Assembly (NCBI RefSeq): GCF_001625215.2
Contig: NC_030381.2
Span: 1,947,131-2,011,130, forward strand
DNA from: Daucus carota subsp. sativus
Taxonomy: Eukaryota > Streptophyta > Magnoliopsida > Apiales > Apiaceae
Direction: 5' to 3'
Length of the DNA: 64,000 nucleotides
Position 1 is the first letter of the stretch. The number at the start of each line of letters is the position of its first letter. Made by a program: the position numbers and the translations under genes. Of this stretch, positions 2,976 to 59,848 are shown one piece after another. The notes below the pieces were generated by a model, which worked only from the letters and a program-made list of their open reading frames with translations, did no database searches and was not told the origin of the DNA.

Positions 2976-3069
<94 letters not shown>

Positions 3070-13644: not shown

Positions 13645-14535
13645 TTATTTCAACTCGAACTTAACTGAATCATTTATCATCTAAAGCATAATTATTTCAA
13701 AAAGCTCACATAAACATGACAATTTCAACTCAAACTTAACAAAATCATATATCATCTAAAACATTCCAAAACATAATTATTCCAATAATCTGACATAAAC
13801 ATGACAATTCAACTCGAACTTAACTAAATCATATATCATCTAAAACATTATTATTCCAAAAATCTCACATAAACGTCACAATTTTAACTCGAACTTAACT
13901 ACATCAAATATCAACTAAAACATTCTAATACACTATTATTCAAAAATCTCACATAAACACTACAATTTCGACCGGAACTTAACCGGATCATATCTTAACT
14001 CAAAGCTTCCAAAACATCACTGTTCCAAAAATCTCATATAATCATGACAATTTCGACTCAAACTTAACTACATCAAATATCAACTAACACATTCTAAAAC
14101 ACTTAACTCGATAATATCTTAACTAAAAGCTTCCAAAACATCATGGTTCCAAAAATCTCATATAATCGTGACAATTTCAAATGAGACTTAATTACATGAA
14201 ATATCAACTAAAACATTCCGAAACACTATTATTCAAAAATCTCACATAAACGTGACAATCTCGACTCGAACTTAACAAGATCATATCTTAACTCAAACCT
14301 TCCACAACATTATTATTCAAAAAATCCCACATAATCATGACAATTTCGACTCGAACTTAACTGCATCAAAAATCAACCAAAACATTCCAAAACAATATTA
14401 CTTCAAAAATCTCGGCATAAACGTGACAATTTGGACTCGAAATTAACTAAATCATATATTAACTAAAACATTCCGAAACAGTACTATTCCGAAAATCTCA
14501 CATAAACGTGCAAATTTTGACGCGGACTTAACTAG
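13645..14535. repeat. ~85-bp tandem repeat, about ten copies
   Basis: A unit with core CATAAAC-TGACAATTT-GACTC-GAACTTAACT followed by ATCATATAT-AACTAAAACATTC and ATTATTC-AAAAATCTCA recurs with the GACAATT core near 13,718, 13,803, 13,876, 13,962, 14,046, 14,170, 14,254, 14,339, 14,424 and 14,509. Spacing is almost always 84-85 bases; one step of ~74 and one of ~124 reflect a partial deletion and a partial extra unit. Copies are diverged, so the array is old. It lies upstream of the ARID gene start. Confidence 0.9.
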
Positions 14536-26306: not shown

Positions 26307-26762
26307 CTAGTAGAAATCGGAGATTCCAGAAGCAGTCCAAAGCCTCTCATTAAAAGCCGCCTGCATGTCATCGGAAATGAACGGCGTCCGGCATAACGGA
26401 CACGTCTTCTGCTCATGATCCATCCACCGGTCCACACAATTCCGATGATACACGTGTTGGCAATTCGGCAGTCTTCGTATTTCTTCGCAGCCAGAGAACT
26501 CATTTAAACACACCGCACAGGTTTGTGGAGGGTCGACAAGCTCCGAGTATTTTACCACAGGTAAAAGCTCCCGTGTTAGAACATCCAACAAAGTTGGCAC
26601 CTCGTGTCGGGTTTTGAATCGTGTCGACAAATATATATCTTGGGCACACGGATGGAAAAAGAGTATTGTGAATACGAAGTCTTTTATTGAACGGAGAAAG
26701 TGTAATGTGTTGTGTATGAATTTGGGGAAGGAAAAAATTTTGTAGCTTACTGGAAATTCCAT
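26307..26762 (-). CDS. BRH1-like RING-H2 finger protein, copy 1
   Basis: Intronless, 151 aa. The N-terminal half has a hydrophobic stretch (about residues 11-40). It is followed by LTRELLPVVKYSELVDPP and a complete RING-H2: Cys82, Cys85, Cys101, His103, His106, Cys109, Cys121, Cys124, with the DRWMDHEQKTCPLCRTPF signature of the brassinosteroid-responsive RING-H2 (BRH1) group. Such proteins are expected to be membrane-associated E3 ubiquitin ligases; the target is unknown. The C-terminal QAAFNERLWTASGISDFY is also family-like. It is the best-preserved of three paralogues here (others at 31,982 and 56,177), all on the same strand. Confidence 0.93.
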   Translation of the reverse strand: MEFPVSYKIFSFPKFIHNTLHFLRSIKDFVFTILFFHPCAQDIYLSTRFKTRHEVPTLLDVLTRELLPVVKYSELVDPPQTCAVCLNEFSGCEEIRRLPNCQHVYHRNCVDRWMDHEQKTCPLCRTPFISDDMQAAFNERLWTASGISDFY

Positions 26763-26826
26763 TTGTCTTTGTGTTTAAGGGATGAGGAGAAGAAGGGGAG
26801 AGACAAAAAATAGTGGCGCAGTATGG

Positions 26827-31981: not shown

Positions 31982-32446
31982 TCAAGCCGCATTCCGAATT
32001 TTGTTATTACAAGCCTCCTCCACGTCATCCGAGATAAACGGCGTCCGACACAACGGGCATGTTTTCTGCTCATGATCCATCCAACGGTCCACACACTCCC
32101 GATGAAATACGTGCCGACAATTCGTCAGTTTTCGAATCTCCTCACTGTCGGAGAACTCGTGCAAGCAGACAGCGCAGTTTTCTGGAGGGTTGACAAGCTC
32201 GGAGTACTTCACCACTGGCAGAAGCTCCCGTGTAAGAACGGCCAAGAGCGGTGTCTTTTCGTGTCGGGTTTTGAGTCGTGTCGGCCAGTCTATGTCGGGG
32301 TCGAGAAATGCCTCGACGCATGGTTGGTAAAAGAGGATGACATATAGGAGTTCTTTGATGAGGCCAAGAAAGCATGATGTGTTGTGTATGATTTTTGGGA
32401 TGGAGAAATCACTGTAGCTCAGTGGAAATCTCATGTTGATTGGCAT
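31982..32446 (-). CDS. BRH1-like RING-H2 finger protein, copy 2
   Basis: Intronless, ~154 aa from the ATG at 32,446. The frame extends further only through a GTG. The ATG at 32,434 (MRFPLSYSDFSIPK) aligns with the starts of copies 1 and 3 and has a better context, so it may be the true start. The RING-H2 is complete: C-x2-C in CAVC, CRHVFHREC, then CPLC. The hydrophobic N-terminal part (IIHNTSCFLGLIKELLYVILFYQPC) and DPDI-WPTRLKTRH are closest to copy 3. The C-terminus is shorter and diverged (EACNNKIRNAA) compared with copy 1. Expected role: E3 ubiquitin ligase. Confidence 0.9.
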   Translation of the reverse strand: MPINMRFPLSYSDFSIPKIIHNTSCFLGLIKELLYVILFYQPCVEAFLDPDIDWPTRLKTRHEKTPLLAVLTRELLPVVKYSELVNPPENCAVCLHEFSDSEEIRKLTNCRHVFHRECVDRWMDHEQKTCPLCRTPFISDDVEEACNNKIRNAA

Positions 32447-32481
32447 TGCCACCTTATTATGTGTGTGCTAAGGATTAGGTT

Positions 32482-35322: not shown

Positions 35323-35741
35323 CTAGGATTTGTTGCCCGCTTCGCATGGTTTCCTCTTTTAATTTTGTTTTTTTATATTAATTACATGAAAAAGAAATAT
35401 ATTTTACAACAAAGGGTTTTTTTTGTTAATTAATTGGATGTTATGTTTTGGGCCTACATCAACTACTGTTGGCCTGGGCCGAAGTATGCTATGGGTCTTA
35501 AAAATATAAATGATTCAGGAAGAAAAGTAACGGCGATGCAGTTGTGACTTTAAACACTGTAATAAAGATTTTTCCGTTATTCAAGGTTATTACTCTCTTC
35601 ACTCTCATCTTTAATCTATTGTGTAGTTCGAAACTATTTGTGACTGAGTTTTCTCTTTCACTCTTCATAACTTGTTTTCAAAATAAACTATCCATTATTT
35701 TCTATTTCATAGCATAACTTCTTTTGCTGATTTAATTAGTA

Positions 35742-36118
35742 ATGGAGGTTGCTGGGTTCATTGCTGAGCGTTTCTTGAAGTATGTCACCGAGCACGACCT
35801 TTTCACCGATGAGATTGTAAGTTTTTTCAATCTTTCCGTTGATGTTTAATTCATAGTTTCTTATCCTAAATAGATTAATACTTCTGTACATGCATTCCAT
35901 TTTAGCGTGTCCCCCTTCGTTTTTGTCAAAAAAATGCTCTCCGTCTCCCTGATGTGGTGTGTCTCGAGTTTCGTAATGGTTACCGAGTTCAAGTTCCATT
36001 CAATAAGGAGATGCGAAAGTTTGTTGGTGTGCAATGCCTTTATGAAGATTTTGAGCTCGAAGGGGGGGAGATGTTTGTTTGCTTTTCTCCAATTTACATT
36101 TTCAGCTGTTACAGATAG
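35742..36118 (+). CDS. Small B3-like protein gene carried by the Helitron
   Basis: Exon 1 (35,742-35,816, MEVAGFIAERFLKYVTEHDL) ends at GTAAGT, and exon 2 (35,906-36,118) starts after CATTTTAG in phase 0, ~95 aa in total. Exon 2 encodes RVPLRFCQKNALRLPDVVCL...NGYRVQVPFNKEMRKFVGVQ and then DFELEGGEMFVCF. The order NG-x-V, then K-FVG-V, then LE-GE-FVCF is like the second half of a plant B3 DNA-binding domain. It is opposite in orientation to the other Helitron genes. The 3' end is uncertain, as another intron may follow. The function is unknown; B3 similarity is by pattern only. Confidence 0.5.
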
Positions 36119-36367
36119 TTTTCTTTAACTCTGTTATGCTTATATAAATTAGAAGTTACCATGTGGGTATGACATTTTAATGCTGAAGATAGATATTTTC
36201 CCAATTCAATTCAGGCAATCACAGAGTTATTAATTTTTCGAAGTAAGAGGAGTAATAAGCATACTACAATCATAATTGCATAATTTTTTATAAAATATTC
36301 AGTACAAAAGTGAATATATCTTAGGTTACATAGCGTTCTGCATAGAAATTTTGTCAAAAACATTAGA

Positions 36368-38681
36368 TTATACTTCAAATTTAAAGTTGAAAGCATGAAA
36401 TCTTCCGTCTTCCAAAAGTTTTCCCACCACAACTGCCTGGAAACATGTTTGATCCACATCTGTCAAATTAATTATAGGGGAGAGAACAAAAAATATGTCA
36501 ATTTGTGGTAACTTAATATGTGTACTTATTGGAAGAATTTGAGTTTGGGAATTTACCACATGCAATTTTCTCATTTGTTGGTGTAATTGAGTTGCGAAAT
36601 TTCGTCGAGATGGTAAGATGATCCAGAAGGCTGTTATTATCATTGAGAGTGAAGAAAAAACATAGTTATTATTACCAACCGGTAAGAATGAAGCTCAATG
36701 TTGAAGAGAAGAGGAAATGAGGGTTGTTCTACCTCTGGCATTTTGCTTTGGCTGTTCTCTATTATATCCGGCTCGGTCACTGTTTCCTCTTTGTAGTCCC
36801 ATCCCATCATTATGTTTGTTGCAACAAATGCTTGATTCTTTTTCTGGATGTTATCTGCTGTAACCTTCAGCTTGAACGTGTAATCTTTGCCTTGAAGAGT
36901 CTTTAGTAATTGTGGGAACTGATCATCCTATAAACCAATATGGACATTAAGAACCATGAAAAGGACGATCATATAGTTATATAATTCTTTTCTTAACTGA
37001 CCTTGTTTTCCAGATCCTCGACAGTCTTGTTTATTACAGCTCTAACCTCCCTGTCTTTCAAGATAATTTCTAAACCTCCTGTATCATCTGCTGCTATTAC
37101 TATCACCTCGAACCTGTGTATTTAAATTTCAATATGATTATCTTTTACATAGTTGAGTTTGGAAATTACGATCGTGTTAACTGAATACCTCTTCAGAGGA
37201 TGTGGAACAATGCGATTGCAAATCTTGCAGGTCATGTTGTTATTCTCAATTTCAAGCTCTTTGTAGCAAGAAGAACAGATTTCTATCTTCCACCTTGTTG
37301 TCTGATCCACCAATTTGATATTTCCTTTGGTCACCACCAAATCCTGTAACCATATGTATCTTTAGTTGTAGTGTTCATAATAAATTTAATATTACTTATA
37401 AGTTAAACTGAAGATACCTCTTGGAAATCTGGTCCCATGTTTCGAAGCTCATTAAACTTGCAAATTTTGGTAGGCTTTTTCTTTTTATATTTTGCATGAT
37501 TAGCGAAATTGGGATCCAGCAGCCTAATAATGAAATTCATTTAGTATTTTTAACAATAATAATCCTAAATCACTAAAAAATTGTTTGTGCTTACATTTTC
37601 CTTAGTTTGGACACACTGTGATGTTCAGCATTGATGTAAAACTGTGTAGGACAGTAGTTGCAAATATCAACCTGATCTGTGAGTGGCAAGCCATTCATTT
37701 TCATTTATCTGTAGATTCATCATAAACCATAAAATGATAAATTATAAACAAATACCTTGCCAAGCAGTCAATCTTCCGCTAGAGATTATTACAATTAGTG
37801 GTTCTTCGGTTGCTTGGTTCATTGCCTCTTCAAATTCTTCAGCCAATGAACCCCAGAATGTAACATTAATTTTTTTCCTTAAACAAAGATAGAGGATTTA
37901 GAACTTGCTTAGGTCTGAATATTTGAACATCTTATAGAGATAATTACCTGCCTTCACTGATCTTAAACCTGATGTTGGTAGTGTCCACTCCAGCTCCGTT
38001 CTTATATTTATTCACCTTTTCTTTCTTGTCCAGAATACCTATTACATCTGCTACCCAAAAATATCCACATGGTCAGTAGTAATATATGTTAAAAAACATT
38101 TGACATGGACATTAAAGATACTTAATAACTATGTTTTAGTTGATCATAATAGTTGATTTTGTTACCTGTAAGGTACATAACTTGTGCAGCCCTTTTCTGC
38201 AGTTCCGCGTACTCATGAAGATCAAACATGTGTTTTGGAATGAAAACTTCAGTTTCAGGAACTTCTTTTACCCTAGTTTCTGATGTGAAAACAATTTTCC
38301 TATCCATGTCAACAGGACGGAAGTTGTCCTTGGTTGCATATTCTTTTACTTGGAAATTTTTTATAACATATATACTCCCTGTGTTCAGTGCGCGATCTAG
38401 TCTTTCAGATATTGAACCAGGAACGGTGGCGTGCATTCTACAGTTCTATTATTTCATTCATGATTTGTAATTAGTTCACACATAAGATGCTATGTTAACA
38501 TACATGAGGTTGATAAGGTCTGGAGAGTTACCTTCCCATCTAGAAGTAGGAGATTGAATCCTTTGAAGACCTCCCCAGTTTTGGTAACGACAATCCATTT
38601 CCTTATGACCCGTACTTGAATCTTCCAGTCTGTTCTTCCAGTCTTCACATTCCTGAGCTGCTGAATAATGTTTGTTGACAT
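36368..38681 (-). CDS. RPA70-like single-strand DNA-binding protein, Helitron copy B
   Basis: Ten exons: 38681-38532, 38445-38166, 38047-37948, 37877-37756, 37676-37595, 37523-37418, 37343-37189, 37113-37002, 36927-36733, 36436-36368. They join in frame to ~456 aa. OB-fold blocks are visible: DWKIQVRVIRKW and FNLLLLDGK, then MHATVPGSI and a long OB (GSIYVIKNFQV...), then INVTFWGSLAEEF. A zinc ribbon follows with Cys303, Cys306, Cys319 and Cys322 (C-x2-C...C-x2-C), as in the RPA1 DBD-C. RPA1 homologues bind the single strand exposed during rolling-circle replication; plant Helitrons commonly carry them. Exons 2, 4 and 5 have exactly the lengths of those in copy A (280, 122, 82), marking the two as duplicates. 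The short last exon (AVVVGKLLEDGRFHAFNF...) is the least certain. Confidence 0.85.
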
Positions 38682-38792
38682 TGTTCTGTTGCTATCTCCT
38701 ACACTTTAGTCTGAGATATGTTACTTGTTAACGTTTGTGTATCTTGTAGTTGTTGTAAGGAACTAATAACCCTCAAGGTTGTTGGTTTCATA

Positions 38793-41482
38793 CACTACGC
38801 CATATATGGCCTATCGCAATGGTGTAAACACGAGTGTTGCAAAATTATGTTGCATTAGAGGCACTAATTCATACCTACCGCAACGATAGTCATTCATGTC
38901 CATTTGATGTTGCAATAGCCAAACATATGTGTTGCATAGAGTATTAGTAAAATAATTATTTATAATATGATAATAATATTTACATAAAATATAATTATAA
39001 TAATTTTAAATGATTAATTGATAAAATATATTATATTAAACATGAAAACACAATTCTTTGTGAAAAAAGATTAATTTTCATATAATCGCTTTAAAATAAT
39101 TAAATATAGTAAAAGTAGTAAATTTGCATAGGAATAAAATAATAATACCAAAATTGAATAAATTTTAAAAATAAAGAATATTATTTATAGAATATGTTAT
39201 TAGTTGATTTTAAATAAATGACACAAATAATTTATTTTAAATAAATTACTAGATATAGTAATTAACTAATATTTTTATCGATTAAAATTTTTTTGAATAC
39301 AATCTATAACTATATTATCTTTAAAATATATAAAAATAAAGTAAAATTTGCAATTTTCATTATGGTTTTAGGCGGGCTAAGTTTTTGGACAAGCGGACAA
39401 ATTTTTTTGGAGAGGGCGGGTTAATATTTGAAGAAGTCAAAACACACTCTCTGAAAAAATTAAAATGTCTACCTACCCGCTCTGGACATTTCTCTTTGCC
39501 TCTCTTCTAGATCTAGCCAGTTCTCTCTTTCTCTCTCTCAAATTTCTTTCAACTGAGCTGTAGATGAAAATCAATTGGCTTCAATTGAGAGTTAAACTTT
39601 CACAGATCAATGGAAATGGGGACTCCTTGAACCGATTCGAGCTTCAAACAAAACTAGGGTTTCATGTTTGAATTGGGGGTGTTTGTTTTTTGGTTCTGTT
39701 TTGTTGAGACTCTCTTTATTTTGGTACTAATTTTGTTTCCTCTCTTTGTTCCAGTGCTAATTTGGGGTTGGATAAGTTGGGACTTAGCTTAAGCATCTAC
39801 TTTAAGGTACTACTTTTATTCAATTCTTGTGTATGTATTTATGATTGGTGTGTATATGTTTTATGATTATGTGTATGAGTGGTGCGTATCTCTGTTTTAT
39901 TTTTAATTGAATGCCTCTGTTTTTGTTATATTATGCCTTGTTCACTCTATATGTTCACACTCTCTCCCTGCCTCTGTTTTTATGTTAACATTTTGTTTAC
40001 CTTATTTGTTTGATTGTGAATTTAAGCTGTTGGAATTTGGGGATTATGTACACCAGTTATTTGTTTTAGATAAGCTTTATATTAGTGTCTGAGAGCGGAT
40101 GGAAATCAGTTATGAATGTAACTTTTTGTTTTTCATTATTATGTTTGACTGGTCTTCATATTTTTAAGATAAATTATTCACATAAACTGTTAGGTTGTTG
40201 TCTTTGTCTTCTGAAGAACTCCTCCAAAAGTTTATGGATTAAAGTAGTCCTAAATTCCTCCTACCCAGTAACTAACTAATCTAGTTTTGGTGATTTTATG
40301 GTAGTTTTGGACTTACGTATGTGAGTGTGAGTCTTTATTCATGTTACCGTGTTTTCTGCTATTCTGATGGATGGTTTTGAAATGAATGTTAGCATTCTAC
40401 ACCGAAGAATATCTGAATTTCAATCCTCGTGGTTTAGGTTATACAAATTTTGTAAGTTATGTAGTAAACTTATATTCTTGATCAGATACATGTGTGTGAT
40501 CAACTTTGTTTTACAGTTTGATATCTAATTGACATTATATGTTGTCTGGTCCTAGGTTTTGGACTTAAAAATTTTTGAGAGTAGCGGAGAATATGCACTT
40601 GTAATTCCACTTCCATGCTTAAACACAATTTTATATATATCTGCATAACTGAATACTATTTAATTTGATAGAATGGAACTAGATATGGCTACCATATATG
40701 GGTACTGTTTGTGTTGAACCACCTCTCTCTTTTGTTAATACATTTTTTAGGAAATAACTGACTTACAAGTTTGTAATTTTCTTATGTTGGCAGTTGTGAA
40801 GAACGCATTCAGAAGATTAAACAATCAAATTGGATGAAGGAATCTTCATATGTGCTGCTCCCCAATCAAATTTGATTCACATATCTTGTACTTCATTTAC
40901 GTATGGGAAGAGAAAAGGCTAAAGAGCAAAGGCTAATTATTCTTATTTTTATTTAGTTTTGAATTGTTAGGTAATTTGATTTGGTTGGATTTGTTATGAA
41001 ATTTGTATGAAAGAATAGTTTATTGGATGTTTAATATTTAAGTATATTTTCGGTTTCTTTCAGTAAATAATATTGGATTTGATTAATAAAATATTGCAGA
41101 TGATATAGTAAAAATGTTGAAAAGTGTATTTAATGTTGCAGTAGCACATATAGGTATTAACACGTGTCTCCATTTGATAGAGACATGTGGCAGCCCGGTT
41201 GGTCCACACGTGGGTCCCAATTTTTTTTGAAATCAGAAGGTTTAACGTAACATAAAAGTTTAGTTGCTATAAGGTAGTCAGATGTTGCAATAGCACTGCT
41301 ATTGTAACCGAAAACGCATGTTGCAATAGGTTACCATAATGTTGCAATAGGGACCTAGGGCAACATGAAAAAAAGCAACTTAAATTTTATGTTGCCATAG
41401 CCCTTTTTTGGGCTATTGCAACATATTTTGGGGTTGTGGCATCATTTTTTTGATGTTGTTGTAGGCCATATATGGCGTAGTG
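38793..41482. mobile_element. Non-autonomous CACTA element 1 in the Helitron (2,690 bp)
   Basis: TIRs CACTACGCCATATATGGCCT at both ends and a 3-bp ATA duplication (38,790-38,792; 41,483-41,485), typical of CACTA. Subterminal regions hold TGTTGCAATAG repeats. The interior has a leader-like AAACTAGGGTTTCATG stretch but no transposase. About 250 bp near the right end (GTTAGGTAATTTGATTTGG and flanks) are shared with the element at 50,171-53,246. Same orientation as that element. Confidence 0.93.
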
Positions 41483-41916
41483 ATAAATACAAACATTACT
41501 ATTGCTGACTTGTTAGGTAAGAATTTTTAATGTATTTTGTATTACTTTTCCAAACTAATGCAATTATTCAAGATGTGTCTGACTCTATAATATTTAAGGA
41601 TAAAATTGTCTTCAATGATTGAATGCTTTCTTTTATCGTTGTACTCTGGAGTCTGTTTATTGAGATTTAGTGCGAGATGAACTTCTGTAATATGACATTA
41701 CATAATATGTTAACATGTTTGCAGTACAGCAAGTTGCGGGTTTAAACAAATAGTTAAACAAACAATCCACATCAAATGTAGGAGGTTATGTGTTGTTAAG
41801 TTCACATATCAAATTCAAAAAATTTGATATTCCTCGGACGATGTAGAGCAAAAGATTTGGAGCTGCTGATCATTTCTGCAGAATAGCTTATCAAGTGTTA
41901 GAAAGATGTTTGGCAA

Positions 41917-44285
41917 TTATAATTTTATATATACTACATTATTAAATTTATTCACCTTCTCAAGTTTGATTTGTTTGATTTTCTGAATCTTGATGTTGGG
42001 CTCGTCATTGTATTCCACTATACCTTCAACCAACCTTGAACGGCTGCGTGTTGTGGATGCTTCTGTTGGTGGACTATTATCTTTACTGACGATAACCTTG
42101 TCCACTTTTACCTACATGAGAACACCGGCTTAGGAAATTTAATATGTTACATTCTAGTGATACTGTAGTTGACTTACAGGTGGTGTTTGGTTCTTCTCAA
42201 CAGTCTCATTTTTTCCCAAATTTGGTTCGTGTGTGTCAGAGATTTCAATTGGGTTTGATATGTTGGTTGCATTATAGACTTTGGAACCGCTCTTCACATT
42301 TTCTTCAGTAAGGAGAATGGTAACTTTGTATTTCTTTTTCTCAAAGCTTTTCAGAATCGGCGGTATTGGTGCAACAGCATTAGTCTGTTTTAAAGTGAGA
42401 AGTGTCAAACTTCCAACATGAGCGTGACAAAGTATTGACAATTTTAATTGATCTGGTATAACTAAGCTTAGTTTTATGGGAAATAATAAAAACATTACCT
42501 CTAACTCATCACTTTCAACATCATAGATAGTCTTCCCTGTTAGACGGCTGATTTCATCATCCGGCCATACAATAGGAATTGTGCCACTATCATCAGAAGA
42601 TAAACTGTACAGTCGAAACCTGTTCGTGGAAATAGAGAAGCATAAATTACTTTGAAAAAAGCACGACGATATAAGTAGTTTGCATTTCGTTGAGAAGAAT
42701 AACCTTTTGTCTGGATAAGGATAGCTTCGGTTACAGCATTTGTAATTACCCTCCACTTGCTGCAAGTCTTGATCACATTGAATACAGTAAGGGGAAAACC
42801 AATTCATCTTCTCATCAAATTTTTTAACGGTAACCTCGCATAACACTTTCCTCTACAAAAATTTAATTCTTTAAGTACATTACACCAATCACTTAAGCAT
42901 ATAGTGGGTATAATTGTCTATCTAACGATATACCTGGGCATAACTTTCATCCAGTTTTCTAATATCAGATACTTTCATGATGGGCAATGCATTGCTTTCA
43001 GGTTCATCATCTATTTCCATTGTATGAAAATTTGGTTGCAGAGATCTATGAATAATGAAAACCATTAATATTGTCCATAATTTGTAAATACATTTTGTAT
43101 ATTAAAACTATGTTCGGAAGTGTAGTTTGATATATTGTTACCTCATCTTCATTTCATTAGCAGCTGGGTGGTCAAGATTTAGGTAAAATCTTGTTGGAAG
43201 GAAGTTTGTTAAGTAGGCCACACCTGTCACAGTAGTTAAAAGTTTATGACATGTGCAAACATAACAATATATTTATAATGACCACATATGCAGGAATTTA
43301 TTGTAACTATCAGTACCATTCCATTGACTGACTTTGCAAAAGCTTATAATTATTATCAGTGTTTCATCCTTGAAACATTCCTTTGCTTTCAGAAAGAGAT
43401 CACCAAACTCGTTGAAGAAAGTGACATTGATTGTTTTCCTTTAATACCATAAAAACACAGTTGAAGTGCATTAATGAATTTATGTATCTGAATGACATAT
43501 TAAAGCATTAGAGAATCACCATATTAAAACATATGGTAAAAAGGATAGAATATCCTACTTCCCATCAGTAATAGTGAATGCCACATGTGATTTCTCTTTG
43601 CCGTCTTTTTGATATGTGGCCTTCTGTTGCACATCTTCTACCACTGCTACAACATCTAAACAACATCTAGGTTGTTAGTGCAGATTTTGTTAGCTCATAA
43701 TATCTATTCTACTTTTCCTACAACTATAAATTCTGAAGTTACCAGTTAGGAAGCGGTTGTCGTTTTTCATTCCATCAATTTGGTCCAAGCAGAAGAAATC
43801 AAAGCTGTGTGTAGGAAAATTGGGTGGCTCTTCTTCCACTACTTCCATCTCAGTATCGTTTTCGAAGAAAACATGCTTTTCATTTCTAACAGCTCTGCTT
43901 GTTTCATCCCCATTAAATATCTTTACTATAAAATTCTTTATGTTGTATATCTTGCCTTCTTCAAGTATATTCTCAAATTTTGGTGTAATTTTGGGAGATA
44001 TGAAAGCATGTATCCTACAGCCCTACATGTAAAATGCGAAACATATGTATGACAACGACTAATCAAGCAAATGAGTATATTAAATAAAAACAAATCAACA
44101 TATCTTACAGAGTCATCGAAGAAGACTATATTATATCCTCTAAACTCCCCAGTTTTTTTTGTGATTCCTTTCCAAATTGACTGCGCTCTAACTTGAATTG
44201 TCCAGTCATCTCTGGAATCATCCAAACATTCAACCACATCATACTTGTTAAATTCCATTGTAGAGGGTACCTGCGAAGTAGACAT
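41917..44285 (-). CDS. RPA70-like single-strand DNA-binding protein, Helitron copy A
   Basis: Ten exons: 44285-44109, 44022-43743, 43655-43559, 43438-43317, 43223-43142, 43045-42934, 42852-42704, 42619-42499, 42384-42178, 42111-41917. They splice in frame to 513 aa. OB-fold motifs: DWTIQVRAQSIWKG, YNIVFFDDS|GCRIHAFI, IYNIKNFIVKIF, and HVAFTITDGK|KTINVTFFNEFG. The zinc region reads CIQC...YKCCNR: Cys313, Cys316 and Cys329/330, but where copy B has C-K-I-C this has Y-K-C-C, so one ligand is shifted or lost. The C-terminal tail (KSFEKKKYKVTILL..., Lys/Glu-rich) is longer than in copy B. It sits downstream of the Rep/helicase gene in the same orientation, with ~0.6 kb between. Confidence 0.88.
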
Positions 44286-44900
44286 GGTAGTGTAGTGAAT
44301 TTGAGTTGTTGTAGGAAACCCTAAAACCCTTGTTCAAAAAAAGAGCAAGGGCCTTACCGTTTGTTAACTTTTCTGATCTTCAATATTGCTTAAAATAATG
44401 CAAGTAGTGGTAAGAGCCTCAGTAATATCTCAATAATTGTACCTTGCCTTGAAAGTTGTATCTTACTTTATACTTTAAATTTGTGACCTTACTTTATACT
44501 ACAGGTATTTTCGGTAAGGTTGGTTGTCTACTGTGATATCTTTTACCATAAAACTATGTCCAATAAACACAAAATGCAGAATTGAGATGTAATAGATTTG
44601 GTGATATACTATAATATTATGTAATTTTATAATTGTTTTGTAGGATGTTTGCTCCCTGCTGGTTTATGATGTCATTGTATTCTCCCTTTATAAGATGTTA
44701 GTATATCTACCCTGCAAGACAATACTCATTTTCTGACTGTAATAATGAAGATTGGAATTGAGAGGATTATATAACGATAGACCAAACAATAATAGTGTAA
44801 TTAATCAAAAGCAGTATTTAGAATACATCCTGGTTATCGTGACAAAAGTATGCCAAAAGCATAATTTAGAATACATGTTGACAGATCAATCCAAACACAA
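44286..44900. other. Spacer between Rep/helicase 3' end and RPA copy A
   Basis: Non-coding. It should contain the Rep/helicase terminator region and the RPA-A promoter. No motif is assigned. Confidence 0.45.
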
Positions 44901-47900
44901 TCAGGTCCGCGGAAGATTATAAAAAACTTCCTTGTAGACAACATTCTGAGTAATGTTTGTATTGTTTCCATCAGCATCATCTATGAAAAGCTTCAGTCCT
45001 TGTGGTGATGTAACACGACTAAGAGCAACGTACAACTGTCCATGCGTGAAGACGCCTTTCGGCAAAAACAGTGCAACCTTCTGTAGAGATTGTCCTTGGG
45101 ACTTGTTAATGGTCATAGCATAGCAGATTTGTAGAGGCATCTGCTTCCTACAGATTTTGAAAGGCAAAGTAGTTTCCGACGGCGACAATTCCATCCTTGG
45201 GATGAAATGCTTTGTGCCTTTGTAATGTCCCGATATAACTTCACACTCAACACATAGTTTGAGGCATTTGGTAACCATCATTCTCGTCCCATTACATAAT
45301 CCCAAAGTTTGATTTAAGTTACGCATGAGCATTACTACAACACCTACTTTAAGCTTTAAATCATGTGGAGGCATACCCGGGATGTTGATAGAATGCAAAT
45401 ATTCTGGTGGGAAGGCTGCCAGTTGATCCCTCTCATTGCCAGGATAATCTTCAGCTGTGTCGACACTATAATACGTTGTGGACTCACCTGGTAGCATCTC
45501 CACTATAAGACTATTAACATTTCCAACTGTGACATTGGTTGGTGTTAGTATAGCTCGCTCACTCAAATAATCCGAATTCTGATAATTCTGCAAGAAATCA
45601 GGGTAAGTACTCTTTACCATCTCATCCACTGTATTTGGAGTATCCATATTACAGAAGTTATCAGGAATTCTTATATCGTCTTCATTGTTTTCACCATTTG
45701 ACTCTGTGCAACGTGGGATTTTTCCATCCCCCACATCAAGTACCCACTCTGCAAATTTTGTCAAAGAAGTAACCTCTTCCTCGTTTCTTCCTTTATTCAA
45801 TCTCATATTGTGCACCAACTTGAACACGGTAGCAATCCTCCAGATTTTAGAATTTGTGATACATGCAGACACAACCTCACCACGCCCTGTTCTGGGTATA
45901 ACAGGAAGAATCTGTCTAAAATCGCCACCAAATAAAACTGTAATTCCACCAAAAGGCATGTTGAAACGCTTTGGATCAACTGATTTCATTATGTCTTTAA
46001 GGGAACGATCAAGGCATTCAAATGAAAAACGGTGCTGCATAGGTGCCTCGTCCCAAATTATGAGCTCCGTCCGCTTGATCAATTCAGCTATATCAGATGT
46101 GTTTGAAATATTACACATTGAGTGATCATCAAGGACGATAGGTATTTTAAACCTTGAATGCGCAGTACGACCACCTGGCATTAGTGTAGCAGCGATACCT
46201 GAAGAAGCAACAGGAAGCACAATCTTCTTTTCTGATCTTAATTTCGAAATAAGAGTTCTCCACAGGAAAGTTTTCCCGCATCCTCCACTACCATATACAA
46301 AAAAAACACCGCCTTCTTTTTTCTCGATAGAATCCATGACAGAACTAAAAACTTTCAATTGTTCATCATTACACTTTGAGTAGAGATCATTAAAGTCATT
46401 TTCCATCTCAGAAATGTCGTAACTTGTTTCTTCAATTATCAAATTGTTGATACCGCAATCAAGATACGTGGAAGGCGGCTGAGGCATTTGGGTGTAATCT
46501 TTCAGAGATTTTCCAATGCTTTTAAGTAATGTGTGAATTTCTGGTGGAAATTAAAGAGAGATTGGTTATTGACTGTGTAATGTCAGTATTATATAATTTG
46601 AAAGCATTTACTGAACTTTTCTATGTAAATTTGTTACCTGCGAGAGCAAAGAATTGCTGTTGTTTTTCATTGAGGATTAAGTGAGGATTCCCCGTCAGCT
46701 TCTGTTGTTTTAACAGCAAATCATCCACCATGTGGATCCAATGTTTATTCCATAGCACAGAGAGGTCAGCAACTTTGCAATTGACCATGATATGGACAAA
46801 TAACTGACGAATTTGAGGTGGAAATCCTGATTGTGAACATTCTTCGAGTACTTGGTCCCATTCATTATCATCGTCAAGAAGGCCATATTCCTTACATGCT
46901 TCTTGGTAAGTTTGAAATAATTTTCCATTAACTGTTCGCAAGGATATGAAAGATGTTGGACCACGTACTTTGGTCAATAGTAGGCGAAGATACCATAATT
47001 CTCCGCTGGAATGATGTGTATAAGCCAACCTGCCAATTTTCTTCCCTCTCTTCCTTGGTGTCCAGACTCTGTCATAATCATTCCATACGTAGTGTTGTGG
47101 GATTTCATCATATAGGTAACTTCTTGCATTGATATCACTTTCATTTAAACAGAAGAACGCTTCTAGTTGGGTTAATTTTCCTTTTTCTCTTTCAGCAATC
47201 TTCTCTATGGGCTCATCAGATCTAAATGTACAGTACTTGTTACCCTCGAGATGGAATGAAAGTCTCTCCACTGCCAATGATCTGTAGTGTATATTGAAAC
47301 CAAAGATACGGTAGGCAGCTTCACAGCCACAAATGTACCGACCATCAAAAAAAGATTGAATTTCATCTTCACGACCAGGCAGCTCCTCCCCTGTTTCAGT
47401 TCTACTTTTTTTGCTTCTAATTTCCACTGTGGCACGATCATGGCCTTTCAAGCAGTACTTGAAAAGATATTTCAAGCTACGGGCATGTGCACAAATCTCG
47501 ACGTTCATATGGCATTGATATCTGACCAACAAATCCCGGTTATACGGGACAACCCATTGGTTATCTAACAATGATTTTCCTTTCTTGACAGTGGTGTGCA
47601 ATTTCCGCCTCTTATAAATTGGAAAACCTGATTGATCAAAAGTGGTAGAAGCACAATACCTAAGAGAGGAAGGAACAGATGTAGTATTAGTTTAAAACAC
47701 TTAATAGCTGAACAACCTATGATTACTGTTCTTTGTAGTGGAAATTGTAGCATAGCATACATTCTTTTGATGCAGGATTGTGTTAGGCCAATGATGAAAA
47801 ATAAATCTTACTTTTTGGGGAAGTGTCTTGTACACTTGTGTTCCTTCATGCAAGGTGATTTAGGATTTTCTCTGCCACAGGGACCATGCACCATGAAGTT

Positions 47901-50900
47901 GGAAACTGTCTCATAACCAACAGGGTCAACTTGGGGATCTGGAAGCTCCGCCGATACAAATTTGTCCACATTAGCTATCAAATTTTTTTTTGAAGAAGAA
48001 TCCAACCAGATTAACATATGAACATGTGGAAGCCCTCTCTTTTGGAACTCAACTACGTACATAACTGTAATTTTTTTAAATGCAAGAAATATTAAATTAG
48101 TATAAAAGAAATATAGAAGACGTTAATTTGAAGTAAAACTTATTCTGACCTGCAAGGCATGTACCGAAATATTTTTTCTGCTTAATATCATCAATCAGTT
48201 GGTCCAGTTTCAAACGGAATACACGGGCTATAACATCAGGGGAATTTTGAGGAGAGCAGTGAGGAATAAGTTTCATCATTTGCAAGATCTCATCCCATAA
48301 CGGATTCGTGGTCATTGTGAGGAAGATGTCAGGATGGCCTATATAACGACATACAGCGAGGGCGTCTTGAAAGTTCTGCTGCATGTATCTTCGTGAGCCA
48401 ACAAATCCAGATGGAAGAATAAAACCTTTTCCGATGTTTGATGTATCAGTTGAGCCTGTACTAATGGACTGCTTAATGTTTGTGTATACATCAGAACGTA
48501 AGGTTGTTTGGTGTGTCCGGAACCACCATAACCTTGCTTGCTCAATGGTTGAAAATGCATCAACAACATACTGTTGGTAAAGTCGACCGCCGAGCCTTGG
48601 TGTCATGCCTGTTACAAACTCATTCTATCAATATTTCATGTTGGCTTTCAATGAAACCGGAATGAAGAACTCATGCTATTACAAATACAATCTGTTGAAG
48701 TCAAACAAAATCGAAACACATACCTTCATCAGACCTGACTTGGAATTTGTATGAATAATACTCCATCATTGAAATCATTCCCCTGGCCTTTTTAGTTGTT
48801 TTATCAACTTTACCAAAAGGTATGTTCTTATGATAGCCATCACCTCCTGCAGGAAATAATAGGGGATACTGTAGAGCCATAAGCTTTGGATGAATGTCAG
48901 TTATCCTCTCCAAACCTCGAATCTTCGAATTTATAATGATGTCACGGTTACCATCTGTGTCATCAAGATCACCAACCATCACACCAGCTACCTCATCAGA
49001 TGGAGTAATGTGATTCTCACGGCCACTTTCAGACCGAGATACTTTAAGAACAATTTCCAAATCTTGTACACCATGTGCCTCAAACCGATCTCTGCAGTTT
49101 CTAAATTCCTTAACTAATTCATTAGTCTCATCTAACATTTTGGTGAGGGCTTCAACAATTTCAGCATCAATTTGATTTCCATCACCAACATTGACCCATT
49201 TGAGACGATTGTTCAATTCGTTCTGCGTGTCATATATATATAATTGACAGAACTTTGGATCTTTACCTTCGTCGGGGATAAGACTACCAAAAAGATGGTG
49301 GTTCTGACCATTTAAGCGATATATATATGGTGCACCTCCGTTATTGATAGAATGATCTACTTTACCACCGGTTGAGGTAAATGCGAAAAGGCTATTGTAC
49401 AGCCTAATACCATCCTGGAAGCGTTTTGATTTTTGCTTATCATTATGTAACTGCCAAATCAAAGATGGTGTTCTTGGCTCCTTTGGGAGTTGTATTTGAC
49501 CCTTAGCACAACACAGAGAAAAGATTGGTGTACCCTTGACGCAGCTTTTATTAACTCTTTCCTCTCGCCACATATAAGCGTTGCAATGGGTACACTTGAC
49601 ATTGGGAGGACCAAGGCTATTATATTCCTTATGAACTACAGAACAAAGTATTTTAATAATAATTTTCCAGTGCAAACCAATAACATTTGTTAGAGTGGTT
49701 ACCTTTTTCAGCAGCACGCATCACATCAAAAGAATCGCAGTTGACCTCATCAACAAAATCTGCCAAGAATCTCAGATTATGTAAGACGGTTGTATACATA
49801 CAACTATAATGTCAGCATTATAACATATTATGCGAAGTTTGGTTGTAAATACCAGATTCTGAGTCAGTGTCACTGAACTCACTCTCCAGGCCAGCAATCA
49901 TGGAATACTCTGCATAGATAAGTATGGAAATTCTGTTCTTACACATTCACGGCATACAGATTATCTGTATTCACTAAATTATGTGTACTTACCTATATTA
50001 TCATCATAATCGGTTGTACTGTTATCAGGCATTTTCTCTGAAAAGTCTAAAGCACAAAATGGCATGTGACGGTGTTCTGCACCTTTGTTGCGTAAACGCA
50101 TCGAGAATTTGTTATTACCTGTATAACATTTGTACACTGTCAGCATGTATAATTCAATATCATATAGAAACACTACACCATATATGGCCTACCGCAATGG
50201 TATAAACGTGAGTGTTGCAAAATTATGTTGCATTAAAGTCACTAATCCATACCTACCGCAACGATAACCATTCATGTCCGTTCGATGTTGCAATAGCCGA
50301 ATATATGTGTTGCATAGAGTGTCAGTATAATAATTATTTATAATATGACAATAAAATTTACATAAAATAAAGCTCAAATAAGTTTAAATGATAAATTGGA
50401 AAAATGTAATATATTAAACATAAAAACACTAAATTTTGGAATACAAATATTATTTTTTATATCATCTCTTTAACATAATTAATTATATTAAAAGAAATAA
50501 TTTTGAAATTAATTAATTATGAATAAAATAATAATACTGTAATTGAATTATATTTTTAAACATATAAAATATTTATATTTTTAAATAATTAAGAAAATTG
50601 AAAATAAAATGAATTATTAAAACAAAATAAAAATTTGATATGTTGTGTGCTCAAAAAGCAAGCGGCAAACTTTCCCCCCTGTTTCATTTGAGTTAGTCAT
50701 TCAGCACAGAAACAAAACTCTACACACTCACACTGCGCCTTCGTTGAAACATCCTTCGGCTGCTAAAACTCAACTCTCCATCAAATACACCATCTCCGCT
50801 GCTCAAACTCACCGGTGATTAGGTAAAATCGGGAACCTCTCCCCTCAAAATCAACTCTTAATTAATTAGGGTTTGGAATCAGGCCTTCAATCGGGAGTTC

Positions 50901-53900
50901 AATTGAGAGCTTCTTCATTCCGCGGAATTAGGGTTTTCCGATTTATCATTCCTATCCTACATTTTGTTTTTCATTTTGCTTTTCACTTTAATGTTCTTAA
51001 TTTTGTGTCTTTATGTTTCTCAGGGTTTCAATTGAATTGGGGCTTCACTGGAACTAGGGCTTCAACAGTGTTTTAATTTAATTGCAACTTCGATTTGCTT
51101 AGATATAAGGTACAATCCGCGGTTATCCTCTACTTTTAACTTTAAATGTGTGCTTTGTTTCAGATTTTATATATAAATGCATGTTTATCTTTGTATCTTT
51201 GTTGTGATTTGTGTTCTATGTTATGTTACCCATCTCTCTGTCTCTCCCCTGTGTCCCCCTCTGTCTCCCTCTCCCTCTCTCTCTCCCCTTTGTTTTGTGA
51301 TGATAGATTGAGTATGTTTATGTTTATGTTTGTTGGTAATAGATTGTATGAGTTTGGGGTTTGTTGGTTTTGTGATGTCAGTATTTTGTGTGTGTGTGTG
51401 TGAGAAAAAGAGAGAGGAGGGGAGGGGGAGAGTGAGACAGAGAGGAATAGAATTTTGGACCTTTTTAAATAAGAAACTGTGTCACTGTTTATGAGTGCGA
51501 GAGAGAGAAGGAGAGAGGGGGGGATGTTATGATTGTTAATTTGTGGCTAGTTATTTCTGTTTGTGTTATCGAACTGAAATTTTTGGGTTGATTGCATTGT
51601 CTGGAATTATAGTTATGTTTAAATTTGAGTTCATTAATCTTGTCTTATTTACATTACGAAGCCTGATTATGTAGATTCGAATCCAATTATGATTTACATG
51701 CTTAAATCATGGATATGTATTATGTTTGCAAACATATGTAAGTTTACATACAGATCTCTTTCTTGTGCCCAAATATTTCTCTTTCTTGTTCAATGGAGTG
51801 ACTGTCACCTTGCTGGTGCACTTGGATTGCTCAGGATTCTAATTTATAAGGTTGTTTACTAGATATATGCATCTATTATTCTATAAAATTATGATGTCTT
51901 CTGAAGCATATGAAGTATCATTGGTATGTAACAGGCATATGAGAGAGGCAAGACGTCTATGTATGTCCATGAGCGAAAAGCTAGCATAAGAGATTTTTAT
52001 GGTTAGTAAGCCTTGGAAAAGGATATTAGAACTGTTTTTTTTATGGTCAGTAAGAATGTGTTAGGTTGCTAAAACAAGCAAAAGAAGAACAAGAGCAGAG
52101 AATCCATGAAGCTTTAACAGGAAAATTTAATGAATGGGAAAACCACAATATATAAGCTTGAAAGTGAGCTTCTAGAGCTCCAAAACCAGGTCTAGAAAGT
52201 TAAAGATAATGATCCTATTTGTATTAATCCTGGTGTTCATCTGAAGCTGGTGTTTTTATTATTTGGTGCAGGTTTGCCTGCACTTTTTCTTCTCATATGT
52301 CTTGCTATCTACACATGAAAAAGAATCAGTGACTATCTCATATTTTCTACAGCCTTTTGTTGTTTTCATGTTCTCTTTCATGGTTAATGCGAATTAGTAC
52401 ATGAAATTTATTTTGCAGAGAATGATGACAGAAGACCAAAGTACCTCGGCTTTTTAAAATATTTGTTCCAAGTATATTGATTGTGATATTAATTAAGTAT
52501 TTACCTATTGCTTTTGTTTCTCCATCCAGCAAAATATACAAAGTTTGTTTGATGTTGTGGTCCATGCTGTTAATGAAGATTATGTGGAAATGGCTCAAGG
52601 ATTTCACCAGGCTTGAGTTTCTTGCTAGTGGAACAGATGACTCCTATTGCCACAGCCTTGGAATCACATATCATGCACTTCATTTATGTATGGAGAAGGG
52701 TGTATTTTAGAGAAAAGGCTAGAGAGCACAGGCTAATTGTTGTTACTTTTAGTTGGTTTTGAATTGTTAGGTAATTTGATTTGGTTGGATTTGTTATGAA
52801 ATTTGTAAGAAAGAATAGTTTATTGGGATGTTTAATATATAAAGAGTATATTTTCAATTTCTTTTAGAATAATGTTGCAAACATGGGACTAGCAAACAGG
52901 TGTCCAAACATGGGACTAACATGTGGGATCCATGTGGACCTAAAAAGTGGGACCTACAGGTGGGACCCACAAATGGGTCCCGCTTTTTTTTTTTTGAAAT
53001 AAGGTCTAACGTAACATAAAATATTTGTTGCTATAAGGTAGTCAGATGTTGCAATAGCGGTCTATTGTGACAGAAAAGCCCGTGTTGCAGTAGGTAACCA
53101 TAATGTTGCAATAGAAGCCTAGGGCAACATCGAAAAAAGCAACTTAAATTTTATGTTGCAATAGCCCATTTTCGGGCTATGGCAACATATTTTGGGGTTA
53201 TTGCATCATTTTTTTGATGTTGTTGAAGGCCATATATGGCGTAGTGAAATGTTTATGAATTATAAACATTACCACTTGCAGCAGTGGGGGGGTCACTATC
53301 TAGAAATTCCTCACGATAATCTGCATTATTTATAAGGCCAAATTTACTCTGTATATTAATAATCATGTATGAGATATATAGTGGATTAGTAATAGAAGAT
53401 TTATAAGTTAATTACCAGGGTCTGAATATGCATCACTATCGTCGCTCATCAATTCAACTGTGTCCGAAAAACCTGAAAAAGTAAAAGATCCTTCTATTTA
53501 TAGTGCTATACAGTGTATAAAAATTTCAATAAACTAATTCACATATAAATGTGATTTTTTACCTATGTGTTCCTGCGTTTCTGGAAAAGAGAAATTTTGT
53601 TGCCTGCTTTGTTTAATTATCCTCTCTTTCAACTTATCTCCGTTTGCAACTTAAAATAAAACACCAGTCATTAAAGAATAAATCTCAAACATATTATAAC
53701 AATAAACCACATTATGTGTAAACAGTTTATACCGCAAACAGAGTGCTTCTTAGCTGAAGCACTTGAAGGATGTTTTTTCTGAGGAATCAAACTGTCATTA
53801 TTCAATATATTGGTGTTGACTGATAGAGGTGTTAAAGGGCTTCTAGAAGTTGTAAATGTACTCCTCTCTGCAATGTCAGTAAGTTGTGTAATATTAGTTT

Positions 53901-54802
53901 ATTCAATGCATGAAAATACACATGTACAAAACGATAAAGTCATACCTGTTTGACAGACTGGTGTTTGTAGTGGTGTTTGTAGTAAACTGGCATTGAATGG
54001 TGATCTTGTTTTACTTTCATAGCGCGGAGGCAAGCGACGGCTCTTCTTTTTGGCACTTTTATCCGACATCATCCCTAGGTCATGATCCCCTAAAATACAG
54101 AGTTTGTTAAACTAATAAAACTATTAATAGCCTAAGACATATCATTAGCAAAGACAAAAGTTTCGAAGTGTATACATATCCTCGAAAATAACGTGGGACT
54201 GGGTGATTCATCCCGTGCAAGCCTCTTGCTGTTGTTCATATCAGAAAGTATGACCCTTGGTGTGTTTGGTGCTAAATCCGGTGCCCCTAATCATGTAATA
54301 CAATCTCCATTAAACTGGTGCTCTTCCGACATTAATTTGAAGCAGTAATTAACTATCACTTACTACATGAATTCGGTGAGGTGCCGACATTTTCTTTTCC
54401 TGAATGGAGTTGGGTAAATTTGACCTTTTCCTTCTGTTCGGAGTCATCTGTATTTACCCACCAATAAAATGACCATGTAATTAACCAAATGTCCAACTAA
54501 AGTCTGAAGATCACCTCTGTAAACATAAACTATAAGCCCCTGCATTACATCAGTTTTCATAACTTACAATTTTCTAAAATGCGATTAACATCCTCTAAAT
54601 TCCTTGGCGGGTGAAAATGTTCTTTCATCATACTCGTGTTGTAGTTAACTATCAAGGGCAAATAACAAAAGAAAATATTAAAGTTAATTACTTGTAGCAT
54701 GAAACATCATCCGATTAATCAATTGAGGGGGAACAAAAATAACTCACAAACATTAGACAACAGAGGTGCTTTCTTCCTTCCATTTTTGCTTGATTCGTCC
54801 AT
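44901..54802 (-). CDS. Helitron Rep/helicase (RepHel) transposase, intact, 17 exons
   Basis: Exons: 54802-54748, 54648-54568, 54447-54364, 54286-54176, 54089-53946, 53867-53733, 53649-53563, 53472-53416, 53320-53273, 50118-49993, 49909-49853, 49759-49703, 49635-48724, 48608-48150, 48064-47812, 47659-46638, 46540-44901. They total 5,328 nt, 1,775 aa, with no stop and matching phases throughout. The HUH nickase motif is GLPHVHMLIWL (His818, His820); the paired catalytic tyrosines are in KYLFKYCLKG (Tyr953, Tyr957). The C-terminal PIF1-type helicase has Walker A GSGGCGKT (1313-1320), Walker B DEAP (1393-1396), FGGDFRQILPV, and near the end AMTINKSQGQ and YVALSRV. The protein would nick, unwind and transfer one strand in rolling-circle transposition. 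The N-terminal ~350 residues come from twelve small exons, many acidic and serine-rich. Intron 9 contains a CACTA element. Confidence 0.92.
50171..53246. mobile_element. Non-autonomous CACTA element 2, in Rep/helicase intron 9 (3,076 bp)
   Basis: Left end CACTACACCATATATGGCCT, right end the reverse complement of CACTACGCCATATATGGCCT, with an AAA duplication (50,168-50,170; 53,247-53,249). Subterminal TGTTGCAATAG repeats and the 3' segment are shared with the element at 38,793. It has a leader-like region (about 50,830-51,110) but no transposase. It lies between exon 9 (ending 53,273) and exon 10 (starting 50,118). Confidence 0.93.
51226..51530. repeat. Pyrimidine and purine simple-sequence tracts inside CACTA element 2
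   Basis: A CT-rich run (about 51,230-51,290) is followed by a GT run (about 51,385-51,402) and a GA/GGGAG-rich run (about 51,403-51,530). Confidence 0.85.
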
Positions 54803-55460
54803 CAATGGTTACCAAAAACTAAATTTCAAAATCCAGTGGAAAATCACACATAAGTTAGCATCTTCACGACAAATTTGAAAATCAGACTAACAAAAATCAT
54901 AGATAACATTAGTCATAACAAAATTAACGATGGTACAATAAAAGCATCTTCACGCAATTTCAGAGATTAAATGAGCACAAAAAAAATTAAAATCGTTGAT
55001 AACATTACTCATAACAGCAGTGACAATGGTATAATACAATCATCTTCAAACAAATTCTGAGATTAAATGAAGTGGAAAATCGCACCTGCCTTGTGTTCTT
55101 GAATTAGTTCTCGGTTTGAAAAAGCAGTGTGTTTAATGATGTTGATATTCAAATTTAGGAGACGACCTCCTATCTAAATTGTTTAAGCTGAAAAGAAAGC
55201 AATTACCCGGAAGATTATAAAGAGGCGGTACAATTGAAGAACTTGATTGCGGACACGTGTTCTTTGAGCCGTGAGAATTTAAAATCAATGGTGTTTGCTT
55301 TTGACATGTGGCCTCTTCTTTCGATGGAGGCTGTAAACCATGTGTGCACCGTATGTTTTATTAAAAAGCAGTGGCAAAAGATGAAAATACGGTTCCTTTT
55401 TGGAGGGCATTTTAGTAAAAGAAGCATGTTTTATCCTTGAGGCTTTATATACTAGGGTGA
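54803..55460 (-). other. Helitron 5' terminal region and Rep/helicase leader
   Basis: Non-coding. From the TC end at 55,460 inward to the Rep/helicase ATG at 54,802. It should hold the replication start and the Rep/helicase promoter. Confidence 0.6.
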
Positions 55461-56176: not shown

Positions 56177-56650
56177 TCAGAAATTCGAGATTCGAGAAGT
56201 ACTCCAAAGCTTCACATTCAAAGCCTCCTGCATGTCATCAGAAATGAACGCCGTTCGACATAACGGACACGTCACCTACTCGTTATCCATCCAACGGTCC
56301 ACACACTCCCGATGAAATACGTGCCGGCAATTTATCAGTCTTCGAATCTTCTCGCCGCCAGAAAACTCATACAAGCAGACAACACAACTTTCCGGTGGGT
56401 CGACAAGGTCACTGTATTTTACAACTGGCGAAAGCTCCCGTGTTAGCACCGCCGGGGGAGATGGCAATAGTTTGTCGTGTCGGGTTTTGAGTCGTGTTGG
56501 CCAGACGATATCCGGGTCAAGAAATGCCTCGACACATGGCTGGTAAAAGAATATAACGTACAAGAGTTCTTTCATCAAATCAAGAAAGCATGATATGTTG
56601 TATATGAATTTCGGCAAGGAAATATCTTCGTAGCTCGCAGGAAACCCCAT
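56177..56650 (-). pseudogene. BRH1-like RING-H2 protein, copy 3, with a nonsense codon in the RING
   Basis: From MGFPASYEDISLPK the frame matches copies 1 and 2 through CVVC, CRHVFHREC and DRWMDNE, then meets TAG where the relatives have Gln in HEQKTCPLC. After that stop the same frame goes on as VTCPLCRTAFISDDMQEALN...STSRISNF to a natural TGA at 56,177, so a single CAG-to-TAG change is enough to explain it. The 124-residue product keeps six of eight zinc ligands (Cys89, Cys92, Cys108, His110, His113, Cys116) but lacks the last C-x2-C, so it should not fold as a working RING. Promoter-proximal sequence is still like that of copy 2. Confidence 0.85.
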
Positions 56651-56718
56651 GTTGATTGCTATATAGCTCCTCTTCGATGTGTGTTTTTTTACAAACTGTG
56701 CGTGTATTAGATTAGATG

Positions 56719-56727
56719 ATATATATA
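56719..56727 (-). promoter_or_regulatory. TATA box of RING-H2 copy 3
   Basis: A TATATATAT run on the minus strand ~70 bases before the ATG, preceded by TTTCTC where copies 1 and 2 have CTCTCTC. Confidence 0.45.
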
Positions 56728-56894
56728 GAGAAAGTGTTAAATGTAGGAGAGAGCTGCTATCTGATTAATCAGTATAACCTCTTACCGTGTGCAATTATTT
56801 TACATGTGTTATGTTGAGCTTTCTGTCTAGGTTTAAATGTTGGGTTTTAAGTTATTTTCAGCTAAGTGCTTAAAAAATATTTATTCGTATAATA

Positions 56895-57883: not shown

Positions 57884-58516
57884 TACGCAGGCAGGGACGA
57901 AGCTACATAGGGGCCAGAAGGGGCCATGGCCCCCCCTAGGATTTCCATAGTATTGTAATTTTTATTATATAATTTTGAAAAAAATTGTATTTTATCTATA
58001 TATTTATATAAATATAAAAATTTGGCCCCCCTCAAAAAATATTTGTTCGCTTCTAAAAAATATTTAACATTGTAAAATAAAGTTTTAATTCTTAGATTTT
58101 TCTAATTTATTGTATTAGACCAAATTTAAAAATAAAAATAAACAAAAATATGGATATATATACAATTATACTAATTTAAAAGGAAAGATCGTAAATTGTG
58201 ATATGTGATAAATATAAATGTCAATATGGTTCTTCTTTAAAAATAAAAATCTTTGGTGGAGGTCTTATCCAAAAAACTTATACCTCACTTCACTTCTTCA
58301 TTTTCATAGAATAGTTAGTCCTCGTGCATTATAAATTTATTATTTAATATTAATGTTGATCTACTCATCTTCAATTTAAATTCATCATCCAGGTAATATT
58401 TTTACTTATTTAAATTATAACTTGTCGTCTTCTAAATAAGTATAATATTTTTTTTAAGTATAATAAACATTTTTTTTTGAAAAGGAGTAAGTATAATAAA
58501 CATAATATTTAGTTTT

Positions 58517-59510
<994 letters not shown>

Positions 59511-59848
59511 TTTAGTTTTTGAGATATTGTCAAAATACAATTTCATATAATGTGTGTTACTTGCTAATTAAAGATTACTATAACTTAGAGTTATTATGAT
59601 GAGTTTCCTGACCATTTATACTTAAATATATTTAAAGAAAAATAGCTAAATATTTTTGTTGACACTATTATAAATTTGATTTCCTGATTTAAAAGAGCGC
59701 AAAGCTCTACTATAATTTTTTTACTAGTATTTTTGTATTTATTTTATAATGAATATTTTATAGTGCTGATGAAAAATTTTACTGTATCGAAGAAAAAAAA
59801 TTTCGGCCCCCCTTACAGACGTTTGCTGGCTTCGTCCCTGTACGCAGG

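Follow-up and report, generated by a model that had tools for sequence, protein, structure and literature searches.

A low-copy Helitron family of carrot with signs of very recent movement and antisense B3-domain genes

Introduction

Does the carrot (Daucus carota) genome hold a Helitron that is complete enough to be autonomous, and has it moved in the recent past? The question is raised by a locus on contig C1, in a window of 64,000 nucleotides (C1:1947131-2011130), for which an earlier note had proposed a full-length Helitron that encodes a Rep/helicase (RepHel) and two RPA genes. A search of the genome (441 Mb, 11 contigs) and an analysis of the coding parts indicate that the window element is very probably a copy of a low-copy, recently mobile and canonical Helitron family, a statement that covers its identity, architecture and recent movement jointly.

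Ends, copies and recent movement

The element is read on the minus strand (Table 1), where an A is followed by TCACCCTAGTATATAAAGCC at 55460 and CCATGCGAAGCGGGCAACAAATCCTAG is followed by a T at 35323. Without its two CACTA-type inserts and one copy of each 3-bp duplication, it measures 14,366 bp. The 5'-terminal 200 bp occur three times genome-wide, and the 3'-terminal 200 bp give nine matches, which comprise those three copies, one match of 86% over 190 bases and a further five that are partial. The copy at C5:46045534-46059899 spans 14,366 bp, and a scripted comparison found it to be identical, letter for letter, to the window element stripped in this way. The flanks of these two copies are unrelated, and at both sites the element runs from TC to CTAG between an A and a T. 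The third copy (C7:26437975-26455466; 17,492 bp) is 99.1% identical, with 114 differing positions and 3 gaps relative to C5 across the 13,623 columns of the main block, and no stops arise in its coding exons. All three copies, in differing flanks, display the canonical Helitron arrangement of a 5' TC and a 3' CTRR between A and T without target duplication, and since C5 and C7 break at the same bases, both ends and the AT target read earlier are confirmed. An additional RepHel copy at C1:9868176 (89%) has only parts in common with C5.

Table 1. Features of the Helitron locus (positions are those of the window)
Feature	Position	Strand	Remarks
Helitron	35323..55460	-	TC...CTAG between A and T; total 20,138 bp including two inserts
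3' terminus	35323..35350	-	weak hairpin CCATGC-GAA-GCGGG + CTAG; same in C5 and C7, similar in other elements
Antisense B3-domain gene, 5' part	35742..36075	+	first exon plus part of the second; truncated by a deletion of ~3.1 kb relative to C7
Microhomology ATGTT	36071..36075		5 bp at the deletion junction, common to C5
RPA-A	36640..38681	-	9 exons, 465 aa; DUF223 and REPA_OB_2 pass the cut-off, Rep_fac-A_C matches below it; CxxC-x12-CxxC
CACTA-type insert	38793..41482	+	2,690 bp, TSD ATA; lies between RPA-A and RPA-B; empty site exact in both C5 and C7
RPA-B	41870..44285	-	11 exons, 502 aa; DUF223 passes the cut-off, Rep_fac-A_C unmatched; weakly constrained
RepHel	44901..54802	-	17 exons, 1732 aa; HUH, Tyr-Tyr and Pif1-like helicase
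CACTA-type insert	50171..53246	+	3,076 bp, TSD AAA, intronic in RepHel; empty site exact in C5, no insert in the C7 alignment
5' terminus	55441..55460	-	TCACCCTAGTATATAAAGCC; same in 3 of 3 copies found

Very recent movement of the family is strongly supported. The earlier note had called the element possibly recently active, which the identity of a copy at an unrelated site over 14,366 bp strongly favours; the search for near-identical copies that it advised returned C5 as exact and C7 at 99.1%, and other copies with matching TC and CTAG termini, whose absence it had named as evidence against its reading, do exist. The lack of any difference over the 14,366 bp would correspond to an upper age bound of approximately 8,000 years at a substitution rate of 1.3e-8 and of approximately 16,000 years at 6.5e-9. 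The exact identity could instead be a product of assembly or gene conversion: zero differences over such a length is indeed extreme, and C1 and C5 are still set apart by two CACTA inserts. Against this, the CACTA sites are precisely empty in C5, the flanks are unrelated, the breaks lie exactly at TC and CTAG, and an A and a T border the element at both sites. We consider this origin improbable and retain recent transposition as the explanation of the twin copies.

The two inserts make up 5,766 of the 20,138 bp and were absent from the earlier description. Both have the inverted CACTA ends and the 3-bp target duplication of CACTA elements, and their terminal inverted repeats agree at 21 and 20 of the outermost 22 bases. 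They are 81% identical to each other over aligned positions, and the longest frame listed in either (among frames of at least 70 aa) has 106 aa. At the second site the right flank has no letter-for-letter match in C7, where the alignment continues without the insert. Most simply, both CACTAs would have inserted into the window copy after its split from C5, the alternative being precise loss from C5. Two CACTA elements are found in a single Helitron copy that is otherwise without any base difference from C5.

The weakness of the 3' hairpin likewise has no place in the earlier note. At the 3' end of the Helitron no qualifying stem was detected, and its folding z is approximately 0, no better than that of shuffles; despite this, CCATGCG(A/T)AGCGGG recurs in the window copy, C5, C7 and other elements. 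The hairpin was at one point regarded as decayed, but this was dropped because the three copies share the sequence and a second family has a near-identical one (CCATGCGTAGCGGG). By analogy with Helraiser mutants, a weak 3' hairpin would favour read-through past the 3' end. The 3' end and hairpin sequence are also carried by two further sites, L029 (C5:35383657-35383719) and L024 (C9:34923795-34923984), possibly non-autonomous relatives. A scan of viral contigs found no relative.

Elsewhere in the window, three RING-H2 finger ORFs, at 26307-26774, 31982-32467 and 56276-56764 (minus), coincide with direct repeats; the Helitron sits between the second and the third, and the third frame terminates within the RING domain. 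Inverted repeats (2352-3299 and 57911-59795; 84-86%) lie about 55 kb apart near simple-repeat tracts, and a 43-nt unit is present in 10 copies at 13647-14471 with a spacing of 75-124 nt. Minus-strand ORFs at 9958-13139, with an ARID match and with ELM2 and Myb matches below cut-off, perhaps represent a single host gene.

RepHel and RPA genes

The coding parts were described by a curated splice model with GT/AG introns, which has 17 + 11 + 9 exons and no internal stops. The 37 exons claimed earlier are thereby retained, while the lengths obtained here are 1732 + 502 + 465 aa as compared to 1,775 + 513 + 456. For each of four regions (RPA-A, RPA-B, RepHel exons 1-9 and RepHel exons 10-12), the splice-model score was higher than that of any of 60 simulated sequences, and the long RepHel exons, on which the codon model was trained, were left out of these simulations. 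Furthermore, the longest open frame reaches 549 aa, as against at most 190 aa in 100 simulations.

RepHel has the composition of a canonical Helitron protein, with HUH, two Tyr and an SF1 helicase. The motifs announced in the earlier note were all located in it, namely HVHMLIW (HUH), KYLFKY (two Tyr), Walker A and Walker B, and Pfam reports Helitron_like_N, PIF1 and Pif1_2B. Residues 310-1721 of a query that is a few residues short of the final model align with Helraiser (7lcc) at an E value of 2.9e-263; exons 1-9 are not supported by any homolog. Among the Daucus carota proteins that match the helicase exon (44904-46550), the best has 91% query coverage and a listed identity of 100%, with one K/R difference in the printed sequence. 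Between the window copy and C7, RepHel has 19 synonymous and 13 nonsynonymous codon changes (dN/dS 0.18, P 2.8e-6), and this codon comparison shows purifying selection on the predicted protein.

The element encodes RPA-like OB-fold proteins, as plant Helitrons with RPA do. RPA-A differs between the window copy and C7 at 5 synonymous and 3 nonsynonymous codons (ratio 0.16, P 0.012), and RPA-B at 3 and 10, respectively (ratio 0.83, P 0.49). In addition, the second CxxC of RPA-A is incomplete in RPA-B, where two of its residues are missing, and from the codon changes the constraint on RPA-B looks relaxed. Among celery proteins (P0063, P0093), a single predicted protein is listed with both helicase and DUF223 (RPA) domains.

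The relaxed RPA-B, together with the weak hairpin and the nested CACTAs, would fit a decayed Helitron whose frames are open by chance; such decay is very hard to reconcile with an intact and constrained RepHel and is contradicted by the identical twin C5, and we regard it as highly improbable. The intact proteins and recent copies expected of an autonomous Helitron are both present at the level of sequence. An intact coding region of this kind had been called uncommon, which is not upheld for the carrot genome, because 60 of the 79 RepHel exon places that were scored, out of 341 candidates, are without a stop (counted from the table).

Antisense B3-domain genes

Close to the 3' end, an antisense ORF that the earlier note did not describe starts at 35742, and its similarity to related proteins ends at the deletion junction near 36075. 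C7 reads on in frame past this junction and has 3.1 kb of extra sequence, missing from C1 and C5, with exon blocks of two B3 genes. The best explanation is that the window copy and C5 descend from an element that was already missing most of both genes. The earlier statement that every coding part is in place therefore holds for RepHel and the two RPA genes, which are open, and has to be restricted in that most of the two C7-type B3 genes is deleted, RPA-B is without two CxxC-pair residues and under little constraint, and a 3.1-kb CACTA lies in a RepHel intron.

Three B3-like blocks were read in each of the C7 genes. The last blocks score 33.6 and 33.8 with Pfam B3 (cut-off 30.1), the first blocks score 25.8 and 17.7, below the cut-off, the middle block of either gene has no Pfam B3 match, and the window fragment scores 15.0. 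A structure model from an 18-sequence alignment of first blocks (mean pLDDT 88.5) has as its three best PDB matches the B3 domains of At1g16640, TEM1 and NGA1, the first with an E value of 1.4e-3 and none with E <= 0.001, and a profile search of the PDB gave At1g16640 (E 0.019). A B3 domain is thus recognised through the last blocks of C7 and the fold matches.

Genome-wide, the B3 search listed 143 places, with 150 of 225 candidates scored. The query was taken from a Helitron, so the search favours Helitron-type B3 genes, but this bias does not account for a fixed side and strand. A B3 place lies within 15 kb downstream and on the opposite strand at 28 of the 79 RepHel places, and none of the 79 has one at that distance in any other arrangement, be it downstream on the same strand or upstream on either strand. 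When the B3 places were moved along the contigs (200 trials; nine contigs, the lengths of C6 and C8 being guessed), the mean was 0.2 and the maximum 3. At 25 kb, the downstream-opposite arrangement was counted 35 times and the others 2, 2 and 0 times; 64 of the 143 B3 places are within this distance of a scored RepHel place and 79 are not. By our own count about 40 of the 143 B3 places contain a stop, some possibly outside the exon. A second family, with a RepHel 67-68% identical to that of the window, has two copies that share the B3 region, at 98.9% over 4,887 columns, and diverge shortly past CTAG (by a few bases), as judged from their 3' ends. The initial interpretation of the window ORF as a chance captured gene fragment was revised after the C7 exons and this genome-wide count.

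From 20 chosen loci and C7, 28 B3 exons were extracted and one with stops was dropped, which left 351 pairs. In 67 of the 68 pairs with dS of 0.05-2, dN is below dS (median ratio 0.39), although the pairs share ancestry and many of the others are saturated; from these ratios the B3 exons look to be under constraint. The B3 genes may nevertheless be passengers, that is, the legacy in many Helitrons of one old gene capture that plays no part in transposition, which is a serious possibility that we place slightly short of an even chance. The window copy and C5 are nearly new in spite of having lost the greater part of the B3 genes, and 51 of the 79 RepHel places have no B3 match within 15 kb downstream. 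Passenger status is opposed by the orientation, which is fixed beside RepHel places of 61-100% identity, by the excess of dS over dN, and by the 27 of 28 extracted exons that are free of stops (at loci chosen by hand).

Proposed mechanism and implications

By analogy with Helraiser and Feng8, from which the roles of RepHel and RPA are taken over here, RepHel would make a nick at the 5' TC end, displace one strand and circularise it. The RPA-like proteins would coat the single strand, as is partly expected from general RPA biology, and the element would then insert between an A and a T. The fuller family form is that of C7, with exons of two antisense B3-domain genes at the 3' end, and some related carrot Helitrons retain B3 genes in the same orientation. 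The window copy would have received its two CACTA elements after the split from C5.

Tentatively, we suggest that the products of the B3 genes bind DNA in a sequence-specific manner and regulate their own element, either by activating promoters or by counteracting silencing, a role that we judge about as likely as that of passengers. By analogy with VANC, of which they would be a rolling-circle counterpart, it is conceivable, if somewhat doubtful, that carrot Helitrons encode multi-B3 proteins of their own, that selection maintains the genes in a constant antisense position, and that the proteins bind Helitron sequence and either activate the element or protect it against silencing. Copies without the genes would be served in trans, and since the twins C1 and C5 are without intact B3 genes, these are not required in cis.

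With intact machinery and an exact twin, the family lends itself readily to tests for empty sites, circles and expression. Plant Helitrons would, with the antisense B3 genes, retain a third type of gene in addition to RepHel and RPA. If their proteins act on the element, this would be an example of a rolling-circle transposon that regulates itself in a plant. Searches of the open-licence literature brought up no report of B3 genes in Helitrons, and the term 'b3 domain' is absent from the available passages of PMC13317346.

Comparison with known systems

To our knowledge, Helraiser has no RPA gene. Its RepHel can be aligned with carrot query residues 310-1721 (7lcc), and according to the available text this bat element has a 19-bp palindrome, whereas the carrot 3' hairpin is weak (PMC4778049). 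Feng8, of the wheat Xuan-Feng family, is described in the accessible parts of its report as an autonomous plant Helitron of proven activity (PMC13286980), so activity as such in a plant Helitron would not be new. Like the carrot element, it has TC and CTAG ends, an AT target and one intact RepHel of comparable length (1,676 aa) with HUH and two Tyr; its mobilisation was shown experimentally, while the carrot element is known from its sequence (PMC13286980). In addition, 'replication protein' occurs 0 times in the Feng8 main text (PMC13286980), whereas the carrot element has two RPA genes.

Rice Mothra and its sister family similarly combine a RepHel with an adjoining RPA-like gene and a CTAG end; the carrot element differs in having two RPA genes, and neither a B3 gene nor the term 'b3 domain' is seen in the portions of the Mothra description at hand (PMC4683698). 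In maize, ZmhelB1 and ZmhelB2, as presented in excerpts of their report, are also putatively autonomous, span 12-13 kb and contain RepHel as well as RPA1 domains, but these RPA domains are in the same ORF and those of carrot are in separate genes (PMC3288121). Finally, VANC of Arabidopsis VANDAL, in the available sections of its reports, is a transposon-encoded protein that binds its own element, and although VANDAL belongs to a different transposon class from the carrot Helitron, it offers a purely functional analogy to the carrot B3 proteins (PMC10398659, PMC5735166).
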